Part shown: positions 1,344 to 64,000 of the stretch, piece after piece
Numbering within the stretch: position 1 is the stretch's first letter
How the letters are laid out: each line of letters begins with the position of its first letter
Source of the DNA: Bacteroidota bacterium
GTDB lineage: Bacteria; Bacteroidota; Bacteroidia; Cytophagales; Cyclobacteriaceae
DNA: 64,000 nucleotides
NCBI GenBank assembly: GCA_016178785.1
Contig: JACOSO010000096.1
Coordinates: 62,001-126,000, forward strand
Direction of reading: 5' to 3'
Program-made: the position numbers and the translations under genes
Notes under the pieces: model-generated
Database searches by the model: none
The model's input: the letters and a program-made list of their open reading frames with translations, nothing else
What the model was told of the DNA's origin: nothing

Positions 1344-1355
1344 CTTCTTATTCCA

Positions 1356-1376
1356 GATTTAAGATTTAAGATTCAT
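1356..1376. repeat. 7-bp-period tandem repeat (GATTTAA units)
   Basis: Three consecutive heptads (GATTTAA, GATTTAA, GATTCAT) lie 12 bp upstream of the E2 start codon. It is the shortest member of the heptad-period intergenic repeats described for 12441-12530. No inverted partner arm is seen here. Confidence 0.55.
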
Positions 1377-4488: not shown

Positions 4489-4537
4489 AGTCAATGGTCT
4501 ATAGCATTTGAACTATGGGCTATCGACTATGAACAGT
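4489..4537. repeat. 7-bp-period tandem repeat (NNNCTAT units)
   Basis: Heptads in register: AGTCAAT, GGTCTAT, AGCATTT, GAACTAT, GGGCTAT, CGACTAT, GAACAGT. The CTATCGACTATG string also occurs at 25384-25395, and a shorter form at 9621-9640. The tract fills the gap between two divergent genes, just upstream of the small ORF at 4556. Confidence 0.65.
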
Positions 4538-8938: not shown

Positions 8939-9556
8939 TCAATTCTCCGCGCCCATCTCCCCGAGACGAGGGGCGTCCGAAGAACGAGGACGCGGTGAGG
9001 TGTTGAAAAAATTCATAGTACGCTCTACTCCGATCGCACAAAAAGAATAAACCATTTCGGCAGCCTTGTCCATAACTTCCGGCAGTGCTGTGAATTCTTC
9101 TTTCGAAAAATTACTTAACACAAAATCTACCTGCTGACCTTTGGCAAAATCATTTCCGATACCAAACCGTAGTCTAGAGTAATCTTGACCGCCTAAAATT
9201 TGCTCGATGTTTTTCAATCCATTGTGCCCGGCAGAACTGCCTTTGGTGCGCAAGCGTAAACTTCCAAAAGGCAAGGCGATGTCATCCACTATTACAAGCA
9301 AGTTCTCCTTTCGAATTTTTAGTTCTTGCAACCAGTAGGAGATTGCTTTCCCGCTTAAATTCATGTACGTATTCGGTTTGATGAAATGAAGTTGGCGACC
9401 CTTGTATTTCAGTTCTGCTTTATCAGCCAATCGTTCAGTATGAAAATTGATTTTGTGATTGTCAGCAATCCGGTCGAGTACGAGAAAGCCAATGTTGTGA
9501 CGGGTGAGTTCATACTCAGGCCCAATGTTTCCCAAACCGGCTATCAAATATTTCAT
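8939..9556 (-). CDS. pth: Peptidyl-tRNA hydrolase
   Basis: Releases peptides from prematurely dissociated peptidyl-tRNA so that the tRNA can be reused. The N-terminus [11 protein letters not shown] and TRHNIGF carry the substrate-binding Asn10 and catalytic His20, and [11 protein letters not shown] carries the conserved acidic residue. The core of about 187 aa has normal family length. The last 15 or so residues ([18 protein letters not shown]) are unlike Pth and are encoded by a GC-rich REP-like element, so the native stop was probably lost when the element inserted. It lies downstream of rplY, the usual ribosomal protein L25-pth pairing, but a terminator and a heptad-repeat hairpin separate the two. 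Confidence 0.95.
8946..9001. repeat. REP-like GC-rich palindromic element inside the pth 3' end
   Basis: GC-rich block in an AT-rich setting. On the minus strand it opens CACCTCACCGCGTCC and has two stem-forming parts: GCGTCC/GGACGC (8973-8978 and 8988-8993), and a CCCC/GGGG stem near 8959-8973. The CCTCACC head and CTC/GAG palindromic body resemble the blocks at 54121 and 55018, so I group the three as one REP-like family. The block codes for the last residues of Pth. Confidence 0.55.
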
Positions 9557-9580
9557 ATTGCTCCCTGCAAATTACAGATT

Positions 9581-9651
9581 TAGTCCATAGACTATAGTCG
9601 ATAGTCCATAGCAAAATACAATCGACTATGGACTATCGACCAATGGACCAT
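9581..9651. repeat. Inverted 7-bp-period repeat (TAGTCCA / CGACTAT arms)
   Basis: Left arm heptads: TAGTCCA, TAGACTA, TAGTCGA, TAGTCCA (9581-9608). Right arm: CGACTAT, GGACTAT, then CGACCAAT and GGACCAT (9623-9651). The arms contain a perfect 15-bp inverted repeat (9597-9611 with 9626-9640) around a 14-nt loop. It lies between rplY and pth on the minus strand, so an RNA reading through would form a strong hairpin. Confidence 0.75.
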
Positions 9652-9663
9652 GATTCAGTCCTC

Positions 9664-9698
9664 AAAAAAAATCCCATCCAAAATATGGACGGGATTTT
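9664..9698 (-). terminator. Rho-independent terminator of rplY
   Basis: On the minus strand AATCCCGTCC pairs with GGATGGGATT (10 bp with one G-U) around a short AT loop, and eight T residues follow (complement of 9664-9671). It starts about 20 bp after the rplY stop. The name-bearing T run is on the minus-strand side; the plus-strand side also has a short T run, so it may work in both directions. Confidence 0.8.
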
Positions 9699-9718
9699 TC
9701 ATAAAATGAGGTAGAAAC

Positions 9719-10417
9719 TTATTTCTTCTTCTCGTCCTTCTTAGGGGCTTCAGCTTTCTTAGCATCTGCAGCAGGAGCAGCAGCGCCAGCAGCAGGAGCG
9801 GCACCGGCAGCAGCAGGTGTTGCAGCAGCGCCTTCAGCAGGTGCAGCAGCGGCAGTTTCTTCTGCCATCTTAGCAGCACGAGGCACCTCTACTGCAGCGA
9901 TAGCAGCGGCTTTAGGATCCAGGAATTCAAGGTTCGCGATTTTCATGTCTCCCACTTTAATGGCATGGTGAAAGTCCAACTCTGAACAATCGATATCAAT
10001 ATGGTCAGGCATGTCTTTAGGTAAAGCATATACTTTCAGAGAAGCGCGCTTTCTTACCAAAAGTCCACCCTTCGCAACGCCAGGAGCCTGGCCAACCAAA
10101 CGGGTTGGGATGTCCATTTTGACTTTGCGTTCATCGCTGATGCGTAAGAAATCAACATGCAAAATAATTTCACTCACAGGATGGAATTGAACCTCCTGCA
10201 TAATCGCCTGGCACTCTTCGCCTTCGATGTTCAGGTGAACAAAGTGCGCTTCGTTGGTGTAAACCAAATCACGGAACAAAATCACAGGCGAATAGAAGTG
10301 CACTTGGTTGTCGCCACCGTAAAGCACGCACGGTACATTGCCTTCTTCCCTGATTTTTTGAGCGTCATTCTTGCCGAGATTTGCTCTTCGATACCCTATA
10401 ATCTCTACAGTTTTCAT
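9719..10417 (-). CDS. rplY: 50S ribosomal protein L25 (Ctc/TL5 type)
   Basis: 232-aa long-form L25/Ctc protein that binds 5S rRNA in the central protuberance. The N-terminal L25 domain (about 1-90) has VEIIGYRRANLGKNDAQKIR and CVLYGGD; the TL5/Ctc C-terminal beta domain (about 95-180) has GQAPGVAKGGLLV. After residue 183 there is an unusually long Ala/Pro tail with four or more APA/AAA runs, ending in a Lys-rich KKDEKKK. Such tails are common in Bacteroidota L25 and are probably disordered. It is followed by a terminator and then pth, and preceded by prs at a 35-bp gap. Confidence 0.95.
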   Translation of the reverse strand: MKTVEIIGYRRANLGKNDAQKIREEGNVPCVLYGGDNQVHFYSPVILFRDLVYTNEAHFVHLNIEGEECQAIMQEVQFHPVSEIILHVDFLRISDERKVKMDIPTRLVGQAPGVAKGGLLVRKRASLKVYALPKDMPDHIDIDCSELDFHHAIKVGDMKIANLEFLDPKAAAIAAVEVPRAAKMAEETAAAAPAEGAAATPAAAGAAPAAGAAAPAADAKKAEAPKKDEKKK

Positions 10418-10452
10418 AATGGTTAATTGTTTAAATAGTTAATTGTAAAATT

Positions 10453-11382
10453 CTAAAGTCTGATAAATAACGAACTGATCGACTCGTGATCGTGAATCTT
10501 TCTGATCGCTTTCGCGAAAAGATCTGATACGGTCAATACTTTAATCTTTGATGAATTCCCCTTCAAAGGAATAGTATCGGTCACCGCCATTTCGACCAAC
10601 TCCGATTTCTCAATATTTTCGTAAGCCTTACCTGAAAGAACAGGGTGGGTACAAACTGCACGCACTGAATTAGCGCCCTTTTCCTTCAATAAAGCTGCGG
10701 CCTTGCAAATGGTTCCTGCGGTATCAACCAGGTCATCAACTAAAATCACGTCCTTGCCTTCTACTTCCCCTATTAAGCGCATACTTTCCACTTTATTGGC
10801 TTCTTTGCGGTGCTTATCGCACACAGCCAGGTCAGCATCAAAAAATTTCGCAAAACTGCGAGCACGTTTAATTCCACCAACGTCAGGTGAAGCAAACATG
10901 ATATTTTTAAGATTAAGTGACTTTAAATAAGGAACGAAAATGTAATTCCCGTCAAGGTGGTCTACAGGTATGTCAAAGAAACCCTGAATCTGGTCTGCGT
11001 GAAGATCGCAGGTCATTAATCTGTCAGCACCGGCCGCTGAAATCAAGTTAGCGATCAACTTAGCTGCAATGGCTACGCGCGGCTTATCTTTACGATCCTG
11101 ACGAGCGTATCCAAAGTAAGGAATGATGACGTTTACATTTTCAGCACTGGCTCTTCTGGCCGCATCAATCATGAGCATCAATTCCAGGAAATTGTCGGCT
11201 GGTGCAAACGTAGATTGAACTAAAAAAACATCATGACCACGAACGGATTCAGAAATGTAGGGCGACATTTCGCCATCGCTGAAGTGCTGGTAGTTGACTT
11301 TACCTAAAGGCTCGCCATACGCATCGGCAATTTTTTCTGCCAAATACGTGGTTGCGCTTCCTGAAAATATTTTTACAGCCAT
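10453..11382 (-). CDS. prs: Ribose-phosphate pyrophosphokinase (PRPP synthetase)
   Basis: Makes PRPP from ribose 5-phosphate and ATP for nucleotide, His and Trp synthesis. At 309 aa it has normal class I length. The PRPP-binding loop DVILVDDLVDTAGT is near 212-225, the ATP/flexible-loop region YARQDRKDKPR near 92-102, and CDLHADQIQGFF near 125-136. The start ATG at 11382 gives MAVKIFSGSATTYLAEKIA, the expected family start. It lies between the tRNA-Gln terminator and rplY and is probably co-transcribed with rplY; heptad-like TTAATTG strings occupy the 35-bp gap. Confidence 0.95.
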   Translation of the reverse strand: MAVKIFSGSATTYLAEKIADAYGEPLGKVNYQHFSDGEMSPYISESVRGHDVFLVQSTFAPADNFLELMLMIDAARRASAENVNVIIPYFGYARQDRKDKPRVAIAAKLIANLISAAGADRLMTCDLHADQIQGFFDIPVDHLDGNYIFVPYLKSLNLKNIMFASPDVGGIKRARSFAKFFDADLAVCDKHRKEANKVESMRLIGEVEGKDVILVDDLVDTAGTICKAAALLKEKGANSVRAVCTHPVLSGKAYENIEKSELVEMAVTDTIPLKGNSSKIKVLTVSDLFAKAIRKIHDHESISSLFIRL

Positions 11383-11391
11383 TTTCTAACT

Positions 11392-11431
11392 AAAAACCCG
11401 CGCTGATCCCGAAGTTTCGGGACAAAGCGGG
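11392..11431 (-). terminator. Terminator between tRNA-Gln and prs
   Basis: Minus-strand hairpin: outer stem CCCGC/GCGGG (11397-11401 with 11426-11430) and inner stem TCCCGAA/TTCGGGA with a 2-nt loop, followed by TTTTT (complement of 11392-11396). It lies 9 bp after the tRNA 3' end and 10 bp before the prs ATG, so it ends the tRNA transcript. Confidence 0.8.
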
Positions 11432-11439
11432 CTTGAAAT

Positions 11440-11513
11440 TGGTTGTCCCGCAAGGATTCGAACCTTGAAAAGCAGAATCAAAATCTGCTGTGTTACCATT
11501 ACACCACGGGACA
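11440..11513 (-). tRNA. tRNA-Gln (anticodon TTG)
   Basis: 74-nt cloverleaf with encoded CCA. Acceptor stem TGTCCCG/CGGGACA, T-arm CAAGG-TTCGAAT-CCTTG, and anticodon stem GCAGA/TCTGC with loop TTTTGAT, which gives anticodon TTG for Gln CAA/CAG. D-arm GTG/CAC with TAATGGTAA. The discriminator base is A. A consensus -7 promoter element lies upstream and a strong terminator downstream. Confidence 0.95.
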
Positions 11514-11518
11514 ATAAC

Positions 11519-11540
11519 CTCCAAAACGTAAATTTTGGAG
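11519..11540. other. Stem-loop in the tRNA-Gln 5' leader
   Basis: CTCCAAAA and TTTTGGAG form a perfect 8-bp stem around a 6-nt loop. It sits between the presumed transcription start and the tRNA 5' end (gap 5 bp), so it would be in the leader removed by RNase P. There is no T run, so it is not an intrinsic terminator. Confidence 0.5.
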
Positions 11541-11542
11541 CG

Positions 11543-11550
11543 CAAAGGTA
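11543..11550 (-). promoter_or_regulatory. Bacteroidota -7 promoter element for tRNA-Gln
   Basis: On the minus strand TACCTTTG matches TAnnTTTG exactly, about 30 bp upstream of the mature tRNA 5' end. About 20 bp further upstream is TTTT in place of the -33 TTTG. Confidence 0.45.
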
Positions 11551-11573
11551 GAATTATTTTTGAAAAGGGAAAA

Positions 11574-11661
11574 TCGTTAATGGTTATTAGTTAATTGTTA
11601 ATCGTATGTTTCTCGCAGTCCTTAAGTATACTTTTAACGAATAACGATTAACTGATAACGA
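11574..11661. repeat. Inverted 7-bp-period repeat (TNGTTAA / TTAACNA arms)
   Basis: Left arm: TCGTTAA, TGGTTAT, TAGTTAA, TTGTTAA, TCGTATG (11574-11608). Right arm: TTAACGA, ATAACGA, TTAACTG, ATAACGA (11634-11661). The right arm is the approximate reverse complement of the left, and 25 nt separate them. The tract lies between the sdhB stop and the tRNA-Gln promoter region. Confidence 0.75.
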
Positions 11662-11663
11662 AC

Positions 11664-12434
11664 CTACTCTCCGCCCCCACCCACTTTCACTTCATAGCTA
11701 CTGAACATAGCTGAAAAGTACTCCCGATTCATTCGGGCAATATTGGTCACTGAAATTGCTTTAGGGCACTCTGCCTCACAAGCGCGGGTGTTGGTACATG
11801 CCCCAAAACCTTCTGCATCCATTTGGGCTACCATTTTCTCAACGCGCTCTTTTCGCTCGGCATGTCCTTGGGGAAGGAGCGCCAATTGTGAGACTTTCGC
11901 GCTTACAAATAGCATTGCGGAAGCATTTTTACAGGCTGCTACACACGCTCCGCAACCAATGCAAGCGGCCGCATCAAAAGCTTCGTCAGCTATCTTTTTA
12001 GGAATAGGAATTTCGTTGGCATCAGGAACGCCACCGGTATTCACGGTTACATAACCACCGGCTTGTTGTATCCGATCGAATGCTGTTCTATCAACTACTA
12101 AATCTTTAATTACTGGAAATGCTTTTGCGCGCCAAGGTTCAACAGTGATAGTCTCGCCATCTTTAAAGGTGCGCATGTGCAATTGACAAGTTGTGGTTTG
12201 CTGCGGCCCGTGCGGGTGGCCATTGATGTACAAACTGCACATCCCGCAAATTCCTTCGCGGCAGTCATGATCAAAGTGGATAGGCTCCTCTCCTTTTTTG
12301 ATAAGGCTTGTATTCAGTACATCCAACATTTCAAGAAATGACATGTCAGACGAAACATGATCGGCAACATAGGTCTTAAACTGTCCTTTGGAATTGGCAT
12401 TTTGTTGGCGCCAAACTTTCAGTGTGATCTTCAT
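11664..12434 (-). CDS. sdhB: Succinate dehydrogenase iron-sulfur subunit
   Basis: 256-aa electron-transfer subunit of complex II. The [2Fe-2S] cysteines are C58, C63, C66 (CREGICGMC) and C83. A second cluster set is C158, C161, C164, C168 ([11 protein letters not shown]), and the third is C213, C219, C223 ([12 protein letters not shown]). The pattern and the extended internal loop (about 85-155) match the SdhB/FrdB type paired with a single five-helix cytochrome b. The C-terminal VGGGGE is Gly-rich. It is third in the sdhCAB operon, 100 bp after sdhA, with a heptad-repeat hairpin in the gap. A fumarate-reductase role cannot be excluded, but menaquinone-linked aerobic SDH is the usual assignment in this phylum. 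Confidence 0.93.
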
Positions 12435-12440
12435 GATTAG

Positions 12441-12530
12441 TTAATCGTTAGTCGTTAGTCGTTAGTCGTTATCGGTTAATCGTTGTTCCGTTTCCCATTA
12501 ACCATTAACTATTAACGGATAACGGATAAA
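12441..12530. repeat. Inverted 7-bp-period repeat (TTAGTCG / CATTAAC arms), best example
   Basis: Seven left-arm heptads in exact register: TTAATCG, TTAGTCG three times, TTATCGG, TTAATCG, TTGTTCC (12441-12489). The right arm has five: CATTAAC, CATTAAC, TATTAAC, GGATAAC, GGATAAA (12496-12530). The right arm is roughly the reverse complement of the left, with only 6 nt between them. It fills almost the whole gap between sdhA and sdhB on the minus strand. Confidence 0.85.
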
Positions 12531-12534
12531 CGCT

Positions 12535-14460
12535 TTACTTATAGCTCCTTTGAGTTAGTTTAACATTTTCAAATCTGAGTTCTTCTTTATGCAATACTTC
12601 AGCCTGGTTTTCGCCCTGATATTGCCATGCAGATGCATATGTGAATTCATCGTCTTTGCGCAGGGCTTCGCCATCAGGTGTTTGTGACTCTTCCCGGAAG
12701 TGACCTCCGCATGATTCAGCTCTGTTAAGCGCGTCATCAACCATCAATTCACCAAGTTCAATAAAGTCGGCAACACGTCCTGCTTTTTCCAATTCCATAT
12801 TCAATTCACTGGCCGAACCAAGAATGTTTACATTTTGCCAGAATTCATTCTTTAATTCCTGAATTTTCTTTTTGGCTGTTTTTAATCCCTCCGCATTTCG
12901 CGACATACCACAATACTCCCACATAGTCAAACCCAATTCGCGATGGAATTCATCCACTGTTTTCTTTCCTTTTATGGAGAGGAGTTTACTCACGCTTGAA
13001 TTCACTGCGTTGATAGCTTCCTTGAAGACGGGGTGATCTGTTCCGACCTTATCGTTCCAGCCAATGTTGGCGAGGTAATCACCGATTGTATATGGAATAA
13101 CAAAATAGCCATCTGCCAGCCCCTGCATCAGCGCACTAGCTCCAAGTCGGTTGGCGCCATGATCTGAAAAATTAGCCTCACCAAGCGAGTATAACCCCGG
13201 AACGGTAGTCATCAAATTATAGTCCACCCAAAGGCCGCCCATGGTATAATGCACGGCAGGGAAGATCATCATCGGCATTTCGTAAGGATCATCACCTGTG
13301 ATCTGCTTATACATATCGAACAAGTTGCCATACTTTGCAGCGATCGTGTCTTTGCCATCGCGCTTGATCGCATCTGCAAAATCGAGGAACACGGCCAAAC
13401 CGGTTGCACCCACTCCTCGCCCTTCATCGCACATCATCTTGGCATTGCGTGAAGCAACATCACGGGGAACCAGGTTTCCGAATGATGGATATTTTCTTTC
13501 CAGGAAATAATCGCGGTCAGTTTCTGTAATAGACTTTGCTTCCTTAGCTTTCAAACCTTTGTGAGCAACTTTCGGCACCCAAACGCGTCCATCATTACGA
13601 AGAGATTCAGACATCAACGTAAGTTTCGACTGATGATCGCCTGAAACGGGAATACAAGTAGGGTGAATTTGTGTAAAGCAAGGATTGCCAAACAGCGCTC
13701 CTTTTTTGTGGGCACGCCAGGCGGCAGTTACATTTGAACCTTTCGCGTTGGTTGAGAGATAAAATACGTTTCCATATCCACCTGTGCAAAGCAGAACCGC
13801 ATGAGCGCTGTGTGATTCGATCTTTCCAGTAACGAGATCGCGAGTAATAATTCCTCTTGCCTTTCCATCAACAACAACTACGTCAAGCATCTCAGTACGG
13901 CTGTACATTTTTACCTTACCATTAGCAATCTGGCGGTTCAACGCGCTATACGCACCGAGTAATAATTGCTGCCCGGTTTGACCTCGTGCATAGAATGTTC
14001 TTGACACCTGTGCTCCACCGAATGAGCGGTTGGCAAGCAAGCCTCCATACTCTCTTGCAAATGGAACACCTTGAGCCACGCATTGGTCAATAATATTAAC
14101 ACTCACTTCGGCAAGGCGATATACATTCGCCTCGCGCGCGCGATAGTCTCCCCCTTTTATTGTATCGTAAAACAGGCGATAAACGCTATCGCCATCGTTC
14201 TGATAATTCTTTGCTGCGTTGATCCCGCCTTGGGCCGCAATACTGTGCGCTCTTCTCGGGCTGTCTTGAAAACAAAATGCTTTTACATTGTAGCCTAACT
14301 CGCCAAGCGATGCAGCAGCAGAGGCGCCAGCCAATCCGGTGCCTACCACGATCACTTCATACTTTCTTTTATTGGCTGGATTCACCAGCTTCAAATTGAA
14401 TTTATGTTTGGTCCACTTTTCGGCCAACGGTCCTTCCGGAACTTTTGATTCGAGCTTCAT
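12535..14460 (-). CDS. sdhA: Succinate dehydrogenase flavoprotein subunit
   Basis: 641-aa FAD subunit that oxidises succinate to fumarate. The Rossmann dinucleotide motif [16 protein letters not shown] starts near residue 38. HSIAAQGGI holds His72, the likely covalent FAD attachment site. HPTCIPVSG and a later [20 protein letters not shown] are the usual substrate and FAD regions. The length fits the larger SdhA/FrdA subtype found with Bacillus-like SdhC. It lies between sdhC (39-bp gap) and sdhB. The same operon supplies electrons to menaquinone, which matches the men cluster at 47-53 kb. Confidence 0.95.
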
Positions 14461-24249: not shown

Positions 24250-24270
24250 TTCAAGGTTCAAGGTTCAAGG
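24250..24270. repeat. 7-bp-period tandem repeat (TTCAAGG x3)
   Basis: Three exact copies of TTCAAGG in tandem, directly upstream of the FAD oxidoreductase gene. Same period as the other intergenic tracts, but a different unit sequence and no inverted arm. Confidence 0.65.
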
Positions 24271-25364: not shown

Positions 25365-25413
25365 ATTTACGATTTAGGTTTTCTATCGACTATGGACTAT
25401 TGACTATCGACTT
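25365..25413. repeat. 7-bp-period tandem repeat (GATTTAN and TNGACTA units)
   Basis: Seven heptads in one register: GATTTAC, GATTTAG, GTTTCTA, TCGACTA, TGGACTA, TTGACTA, TCGACTT. ATCGACTATGGACTAT (16 nt) is identical to 9621-9636. The tract lies between the DUF1295 gene and the methyltransferase, and codes for the last residues and stop of DUF1295. Confidence 0.8.
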
Positions 25414-26190
25414 CTTAGGAAGTGGAATAAAAACTGAAGTTGTTTTCTGATATTCAATGAATGTCTGTCCGCGCGACTTTATCATTTGCTCCTCCGTATT
25501 AGGAATGCCTGTGACCTTTAACAGAAAATATAAAATAAGCAGCGGAGAAATAATGCTTAGCCACCCCCAAGGCGAGCCAAGCGCAAACATGAAATAGGAC
25601 GTCCACACCAGCCATTCAAAAAAATAATTTGGATGACGCGAATAATTCCAAAGCCCAACTTCACATATTTTGTCTTGGTTTTCAGAATTGGATTTGAATT
25701 TCTTCAACTGCGCATCGGCTATACTTTCTCCTACCACACCGATGATCCAAATAGCAATTCCGATCCATTCAATAAAAATGAGATCAGATGTTGGACTAAT
25801 CAGTATCAACGCAAACGGCAAGGAGAGAATCAAGGCAAGGATAGCTTGAAAATAAAAAAAGCGGAGCATCAAAATATTTTGCAGGTTGCCCCACTTCTTG
25901 CGCAGAGCAGTGTAACGAATGTCTTCAGCGTGACTTAACGCACGCACTAATAAATAAGAGGCAAGTCGCATACCCCAAACAAGCACCATACTTAGAAACA
26001 TCACATTGCGAAACGCTGATGAACTGGATTGTAAAAAATAGATTAGCGCAAGTATTGGAAAACTTGCAGCCCAAACTGAATCAACAATTGCTGCGTTTTT
26101 TGTTTTGAGCTGAATCAGCCAAGTCAATGTAAAGATCAAGAACAAAGCAATTGCTCCGTATATAAACAAATGAAGAAGTTGGTCAAGCAT
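25390..26190 (-). CDS. DUF1295 membrane protein (steroid-5-alpha-reductase-like)
   Basis: 266 aa with about six or seven membrane helices. The C-terminal YSRHPNYFFEWLVWTSYF and GIPNTEEQMIKSRG are the DUF1295/ICMT-like signature; the family shares the fold of 3-oxo-5-alpha-steroid 4-dehydrogenases and isoprenylcysteine methyltransferases. In lipid-modification clusters this protein is thought to act on the acyl product in the membrane, although the reaction is not settled. The last residues (SIVNSP) and the stop are encoded by the heptad repeat, so the C-terminus may have been altered by it. It is 3 bp after the DUF1475-like gene. Confidence 0.85.
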   Translation of the reverse strand: MLDQLLHLFIYGAIALFLIFTLTWLIQLKTKNAAIVDSVWAASFPILALIYFLQSSSSAFRNVMFLSMVLVWGMRLASYLLVRALSHAEDIRYTALRKKWGNLQNILMLRFFYFQAILALILSLPFALILISPTSDLIFIEWIGIAIWIIGVVGESIADAQLKKFKSNSENQDKICEVGLWNYSRHPNYFFEWLVWTSYFMFALGSPWGWLSIISPLLILYFLLKVTGIPNTEEQMIKSRGQTFIEYQKTTSVFIPLPKKSIVNSP

Positions 26191-62516: not shown

Positions 62517-62521
62517 AGAGT

Positions 62522-64000
<1,479 letters not shown>

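Follow-up and report, generated by a model that had tools for sequence, protein, structure and literature searches.

The repeats between sdhA and sdhB belong to a class of convergent heptad hairpins, that is, intergenic elements of about 50-130 bp in which tandem units of 7 nt form two inverted arms. The phenomenon is real and widespread, and it is only partly explained. Within the window, by which we mean the whole 64-kb stretch of DNA that was analyzed, the initial annotation had described seven heptads between the two genes, followed after 6 nt by five heptads of opposite sense, and direct reading of the sequence bears this out (Table 1): The first arm is made up of GTTAATC, three copies of GTTAGTC, GTTATCG, GTTAATC and GTTGTTC, the second of two copies of CCATTAA, CTATTAA and two copies of CGGATAA, with 6 nt between the arms. 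Both arms have a core in common, while the variable triplets remain unmatched, and the element folds moderately (z -2.6). The identities of the neighboring genes sdhC, sdhA and sdhB were confirmed; the nearest named matches of sdhA come from Cyclobacteriaceae/Cytophagales MAGs (88-89%), and the host genome of the window amounts to 4.47 Mb in 100 contigs.

Table 1. Positions in the 64-kb window of the sdhA-sdhB element, its flanking genes and the other period-7 tracts.
Feature	Position	Strand	Basis or RNA fold
sdhB, iron-sulfur subunit, operon-downstream of the element	11664-12434	-	
Arm 1 of the sdhA-sdhB element, seven GTTANNN-type heptads	12440-12488	+	direct reading, TRF
Arm 2 of the sdhA-sdhB element, five heptads, inverted sense (NNNTAAC type)	12495-12529	-	direct reading, TRF
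sdhA, flavoprotein subunit, operon-upstream of the element	12535-14460	-	
Inverted heptad element of the TAGTCNA / TNGACTA type, bL25-pth gap	9581-9653	.	z -8.4
GTTANNN / NNNTAAC inverted heptad element, between tRNA-Gln and sdhB	11562-11655	.	z -2.5
GTTANNN / NNNTAAC inverted heptad element	62519-62623	.	weak, z only -1.6
Solo array, AGATTTA x2.7	1355-1373	.	TRF
Degenerate solo array, CTATNGA type	4489-4530	.	sequence reading; below TRF threshold
Solo array, TTCAAGG x3	24250-24270	.	TRF
Short GATTTNN run, then CTATNGA array (25383-25412)	25365-25412	.	TRF, sequence reading

The same period had been noticed with other units at 1356, 4489, 9581, 11574, 24250, 25365 and 62522, and TRF recovers all of these tracts except the degenerate one at 4489, its period-7 starts being 1355, 9581, 11572, 11635, 12440, 12495, 12513, 24250, 25383, 62527 and 62602. 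The CTATNGA array that begins at 25383 overlaps the 3' end of an ORF (25390-26190, minus strand). An Rfam scan of window positions 9000-13000 gave nothing but tRNA above the gathering score, and a plasmid search with the 9581 element returned three weak E. coli plasmid matches and nothing else.

The 7-nt step and its near-exclusion from coding DNA extend to the genome at large. Our sample of this genome comprises 856,801 b in 41 pieces (the window and 40 further stretches, about 19% of the 4.47 Mb); with genes called by a simple longest-ORF script instead of a gene finder, it contains 474 gaps. Identity at lag 7 within these gaps is 0.2932, compared with 0.2714 +- 0.0014 in 50 within-gap shuffles (z 16.0). 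Lags 14 and 21 reach z 9.4 and 4.0, lags 6 and 8 reach 8.1 and 2.8, and the remaining lags between 4 and 30 stay within about 6 either way; coding DNA has a lag-7 identity of 0.2523 and is without a peak. Our array caller finds 88 intergenic period-7 arrays and 20 coding ones, although the gaps account for only 67,106 b of the sample, and each of the other periods (5, 6 and 8-13) yields 2-9 intergenic arrays. Lag 7 thus stands above lags 6 and 8, and arrays are far from equally frequent inside coding regions, the two points on which the initial annotation had let its claim of an intergenic 7-bp period depend. Array density is uneven, with 13.7 per 100 kb in this genome and 4.0 in the relative G031, and several congeners (e.g., G002, G007, G008 and G020) have zero arrays in 20-40 kb each. 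The 4.2-Mb genome G054 contains more than 1500 matches to four-unit heptad patterns, far more than other relatives; the array caller reports none in its 20-kb stretch L241 and 2 in L197.

Inverted second arms, which had been described for four tracts of the window, are likewise a property of the genome sample: 43 of the 88 arrays, in 29 of the 67 array-bearing gaps, have an inverted partner with matching unit within 90 nt at score 18, whereas a direct partner at that score accompanies 2 of the 88, and the inverted-partner test on shuffled flanks gives about none. Across a multi-genome sample of 3,101,655 b (118 samples, namely 38 handles and 80 named loci, which are partly redundant, since a few such as L004/G011 and L005/G057 appear identical in genome), 60 inverted pairs have a period of 7, compared with 6 for period 8, a single one for period 9 and none for periods 5, 6, 10 and 11. 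Inverted period-8 arrays of the CGCNAAGC type were observed in G031 (L166:13863-13926 and L167:14727-14786), so that seven is the dominant but not the sole step. The elements have strong folding potential: Sixty of them have a median RNA fold z of -4.1, with 50 below -2 and 40 below -3, whereas 60 array-free control gaps of the own genome have a median of -0.25, with 12 below -2 and 6 below -3.

Stems of this strength, which often lie just behind a stop codon, could be transcription terminators or attenuators; in codirectional array gaps the array begins at most 13 nt from the stop codon in 29 of 48 cases and ends at most 13 nt from the next start in 27 of 48. We regard this reading as highly improbable: Arrays occur in 48 of 308 codirectional, 15 of 103 divergent and 4 of 63 convergent gaps, which is no convergent-gap enrichment and even points in the opposite direction (4/63 vs 63/411 others, Fisher p 0.078), and the sdhA-sdhB element sits inside the sdhCAB operon. 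Moreover, sequence reading on the transcript strand finds no T run behind the 12440 stem, and the 9581 element is adjoined by a separate terminator-like stem that does have one. The initial annotation had suggested RNA hairpins between operon genes. The folding and the sdhA-sdhB position speak for this suggestion, but hairpins in operon RNA cannot be the whole reason, since the elements also lie in divergent gaps.

A second reading concerns dispersal: The elements might be mobile palindromes that are moved by Y1/RAYT transposases, as REPINs are, or by another transposable element. Like REP, BIME and REPIN sequences they are intercistronic palindromes with many copies per genome, and the array index tends to rise with the Y1_Tnp count in a set of 58 genomes (Spearman 0.52, p 3e-5; 0.34, p 0.04 within genus), although the 58-genome correlations are uncorrected and the Y1 figure is confounded by mobile-element load and phylogeny. 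The count of RTs correlates as well (overall rho 0.34, p 0.009; within genus 0.23, n.s.), which points to general mobile-element load, and 14 of the 34 genomes without RT still have an array index of at least 5 per Mb; we read the Y1 correlation as more probably a load in common than a cause. Three further findings make mobility very unlikely. The elements differ from the known families in their 7-nt internal periodicity and in having neither a conserved loop nor conserved ends: The loops of GTTANNN and TAGTCNA elements are mostly unrelated by inspection, and a small set of presence/absence alignments suggests that there is neither a target-site duplication nor a conserved end. Inspection of three Y1 genes (C8 and C85 in this genome, C9 in G008) shows other, GC-rich palindromes (CCCNNNGGG-like) in their flanks, which are free of heptad arrays for 1 kb. 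Arrays also occur without Y1 matches in G018, which is 97% complete, and in the less complete genomes G003, G010 and G046. The GC-rich REP-like palindromes that flank Y1 genes (CCCTACGGGA, GACCCCGAAGGGGTC and GCTCCGTAGGAGC) were seen at L137:10054-10700, in the flanks of 303067-303411 in C85 of this genome (G000) and in L205 near 11334. Three ATTCAAN elements with a common loop (agcttagtccaaca...; L123:13977, L161:16296 and L161:16750) seem to belong to a longer dispersed repeat.

The arrays differ by presence and absence between congeners. Where a gap bears an array in this genome, the orthologous gap of the relative also has one in 3 of 30 cases, one of which (G031) rests on a doubtful 650-nt gap; of the 58 comparisons in which the gap here is array-free, a single one shows an array in the relative. 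Within the genus, sdhA-sdhB arrays were also found in G003, G005 and G021, two of them GTTA-like and one CTTTGAA-like, and most other congeners have spacers of 4-82 nt without an array (29 of 30 loci read). Examination of 60 of the 80 named loci, in which 48 sdhA-sdhB spacers were measured, locates arrays in 14 of the 48, all among the 23 spacers of at least 50 nt; other gaps of 50-400 nt in those loci have arrays in 16 of 306 (Fisher p 5e-11, relatedness uncorrected).

In Hymenobacter, of which 40 of 120 genomes were sampled, the sdhA-sdhB spacer is re-used with different units. The fold z of the 39 spacers of at least 50 nt is below -2 in 38 and below -3 in 37, the best lag is 7 in 28 of the 39, and a strict caller detects arrays in 24 of the 40 genomes, one of them in the non-heptad group. 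By eye, the stems were assigned to about nine families, mostly heptads. On an sdhB tree that is itself weak (45 rows, 150 nt, strong support for 8 of 42 inner branches), the family labels need 27 changes over 44 rows, and in three of the five sister pairs with strong support the two sisters belong to different stem families, Hymenobacter sp. ISL-91 and CCM 8763 (L031, L032) being one such pair. That a hairpin persists while its letters change from one species to another suggests that shape may matter more than sequence at this spacer. The slot is not unique in folding well, since in a control on 13 sdh loci a fold z below -2 is reached by 16 of 31 further codirectional gaps with lengths of 60-200 nt and by 9 of the 11 sdhA-sdhB spacers measured. 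One Hymenobacter family is a non-heptad hairpin that starts near GTCATNCTGAGCG... and is present in 9 of the 40 genomes (L261, L262, L263, L268, L269, L276, L283, L285 and L293); we take it to be a repeat of many environmental genomes.

The initial annotation had considered the arrays a by-product of replication slippage, and this part of its proposal is compatible with the intergenic restriction and with the presence and absence in congeners, yet these observations fall short of a demonstration. In its purest form, a polymerase-related bias toward 7-nt slippage together with hairpin-promoted inverted copying would produce elements that are functionless everywhere. This is a possibility that we take seriously while considering it improbable on balance: It would account for the exclusion from genes, the many unrelated units and the fast turnover, and an origin of heptad excess in the polymerase footprint has reportedly been proposed (Mrazek et al. 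2007, as cited in PMC4679880). The enrichment in a single spacer and the folded Hymenobacter spacers with changing units look like retention instead. Furthermore, in tight families neither arm of an element is a recent copy of the other: The within-element arm match is 18.56 against 18.80 between loci in the GTTA family (8 elements, p 0.58) and 16.0 against 17.9 in the ATAGTC family (4 elements, p 1.0), so that in these two the variable positions are not kept complementary. In the ATTNNA group (6 elements), arms are more alike within elements than between loci (p 0.019). An apparent arm similarity in a loosely defined GTTANNN group (p 0.0002) vanished with clean families. Two candidate factors were rejected separately. 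Loss of SbcD as a permissive factor is not borne out outside the genus, where the array index is not significantly different between 12 genomes with and 10 without the protein (p 0.31), and a Y-family polymerase as driver gives rho 0.23 (p 0.08) in the 58 genomes; over this set the array index is significantly correlated with neither factor. SbcD matches above the cut-off are present in 0 of 36 same-genus genomes, 5 of which have sub-threshold matches, and in 12 of 22 outside the genus.

The explanation that we tentatively favor combines both elements: A 7-nt duplication process would feed intergenic DNA, and some operon spacers would keep the resulting predicted stem. Mutation by 7-nt duplications, whether through slippage or through template switching in replication, would write arrays wherever the sequence is free and turn them over, and inverted arms would arise or persist because of pairing. 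In some operon spacers, such as sdhA-sdhB, selection may then keep the RNA stem as an intercistronic structure, which might serve spacing, the stability of mRNA segments or the separation of sdhA and sdhB translation. If selection acts on the stem itself, any other stem may replace it. In divergent gaps, the arrays would mostly be tolerated by-products. Sequence alignment will miss conserved structures of this kind, and sdhA-sdhB in Hymenobacter offers a natural replacement series for the question whether an RNA stem, regardless of its sequence, matters between two genes of a respiratory complex.

The 5' arm has a preferred polarity, approximately NNN-A-R-T-Y. This best common motif, derived from 27 units (one per family and genome), has an information content of 2.99 bits, compared with 2.62 +- 0.09 (maximum 2.85) for random orientation and 2.41 +- 0.12 for shuffled columns in 40 replicates each; 6 of the 27 units fit better when flipped. 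Two later element sets agree with the polarity (6/6 and 6/7, 7/8 after removing redundancy), the second having been chosen in part by an ARTY pattern match but not by orientation, and an element of G071 is oriented the other way. Of 73 elements, 22 repeat AGT in their 5' arm and none repeats ACT; GTT outnumbers AAC there by 22 to 2, and among 60 elements GTTA outnumbers TAAC by 12 to 0. The 39 Hymenobacter spacers have AGT 5, ACT 0, GTT 7 and AAC 0 in their 5' halves and ACT 8, AGT 0 in their 3' halves. In the own genome, TTRANNN (28+35) matches ARTTNNN (27+26) in frequency, which makes the reversed-pattern control non-neutral and the ARTT core a tendency across elements and not a rule for all arrays. 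In 38 units, the 5' arm tends toward G rather than C (17 to 4) and toward A rather than T (21 to 11); a purine-rich 5' arm as a rule was discarded, being absent from the Hymenobacter halves (20 to 19), and so was self-priming by a self-complementary core with G-T wobble, self-pairing being 4.63 against 4.72 in shuffled units.

The units form a restricted vocabulary. Pairs of array loci in the own genome are alike at 6 of 7 unit letters in 10.7% of cases, compared with 3.3 +- 0.6% for random intergenic 7-mers, 4.6 +- 0.4% for shuffled units and 5.8% between own-genome units and those of other samples. The GTTA core is kept beside 23 distinct heptads in 75 units, a set that was selected on GTTA itself, and the two arms of elements have the core in common while their variable letters mostly differ. 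Omega-type ribbon-helix-helix proteins bind heptads side by side. The restricted vocabulary and the common cores would suit a putative site of 4-5 nt for a trans-acting protein that binds DNA or RNA in this manner, with the variable letters as spacers; we consider such a site unlikely, as a single genome contains several unrelated cores and a single site can exchange one of them for another. Doubtful to a similar extent, and perhaps slightly more so, is a dedicated trans-acting system for writing or reading heptads that would be common to several phyla, with vocabularies drifting by lineage. In that case, an enzyme or protein would set both the step of 7 nt and the polar A-R-T-Y core, and the vocabulary of the moment would keep refilling hairpin slots, sdhA-sdhB among them. 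The acidobacterial locus L042 bears on this question: Its GC content is 68%, and its genome nevertheless contains AT-rich AGTTNNN arrays, with 136 ARTYNNN matches against 19 reversed controls, which purely local slippage does not predict.

For decades, heptad repeats have been described in one genome after another, each time with a different explanation such as quadruplexes, translation control or intron stems. Flexibacter litoralis is a member of the Cytophagales. Direct repeats of TAACTGA occur in Beggiatoaceae, Cyanobacteria and five Bacteroidetes including this species, and a role as translational regulators has been hypothesized for them (MacGregor 2015, PMC4679880). They resemble the present arrays as intergenic heptads of patchy distribution that are mixed with other heptads in some genomes; unlike these, they are mostly direct one-motif arrays upstream of start codons, with one inverted case reported in the Guaymas genome (PMC4679880). 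Neither TAACTGA nor a rotation of it is among the TRF units of the window, which include TAAC-type heptads with other triplets. In Xanthomonas, heptameric GGGAATC repeats with degenerate GGGANTN units are mostly intergenic, lie near stop codons and between aligned genes, and form convergent inverted pairs of repeat sites, 70 in one strain and 75 in another (Rehm et al. 2015, PMC4692102). Intergenic 7-nt units and convergent pairs are thus found in both cases, and GGGANTN fits NNN-A-R-T-Y in the same polarity. Xanthomonas reportedly has one G-rich unit per genome, interpreted as a G-quadruplex, whereas many AT-rich units without G tracts coexist here and differ between species at one site; none of the window units listed has GGG runs in successive copies as the quadruplex heptads GGGAATC and GGGGATT do. 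A third parallel is P6b of the Nostoc tRNA-Leu(UAA) intron, in which both stem sides derive from a degenerate heptad (TDNGATT or NNTGAGT) and motif classes replaced one another repeatedly and independently at the same site (Kaasalainen et al. 2015, PMC4476775). This shares the heptad-built stem and the motif swapping with sdhA-sdhB but concerns a single locus in a group I intron, while the present elements are intergenic and genome-wide, with at least eight heptad families at one site.

The initial annotation had known of no described Cytophagales counterpart. That holds in part: TAACTGA heptads in F. litoralis and inverted pairs in Xanthomonas are precedents (PMC4679880 and PMC4692102), and neither the sdhA-sdhB slot, nor a common polarity, nor any inverted heptad element in Cytophagales turned up in our literature search, which covered few subscription journals. 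Heptad excess, convergent pairs and replacement of stem motifs are each already published in other bacteria (PMC4692102, PMC4476775 and PMC4679880), and this genome has the traits of the Mrazek/Rehm class, an intergenic period-7 excess and convergent inverted array pairs. Two features, both beyond the initial annotation, are worth following: the polarity and the slot that swaps its sequence. Taken with the 7-nt step and the convergent arms, they suggest that one phenomenon underlies these scattered observations, and the question "why seven" gains a testable form. As a minor observation on a neighboring gene, the bL25 coding region ends with an alanine-rich 21-bp repeat (window 9768-9855).
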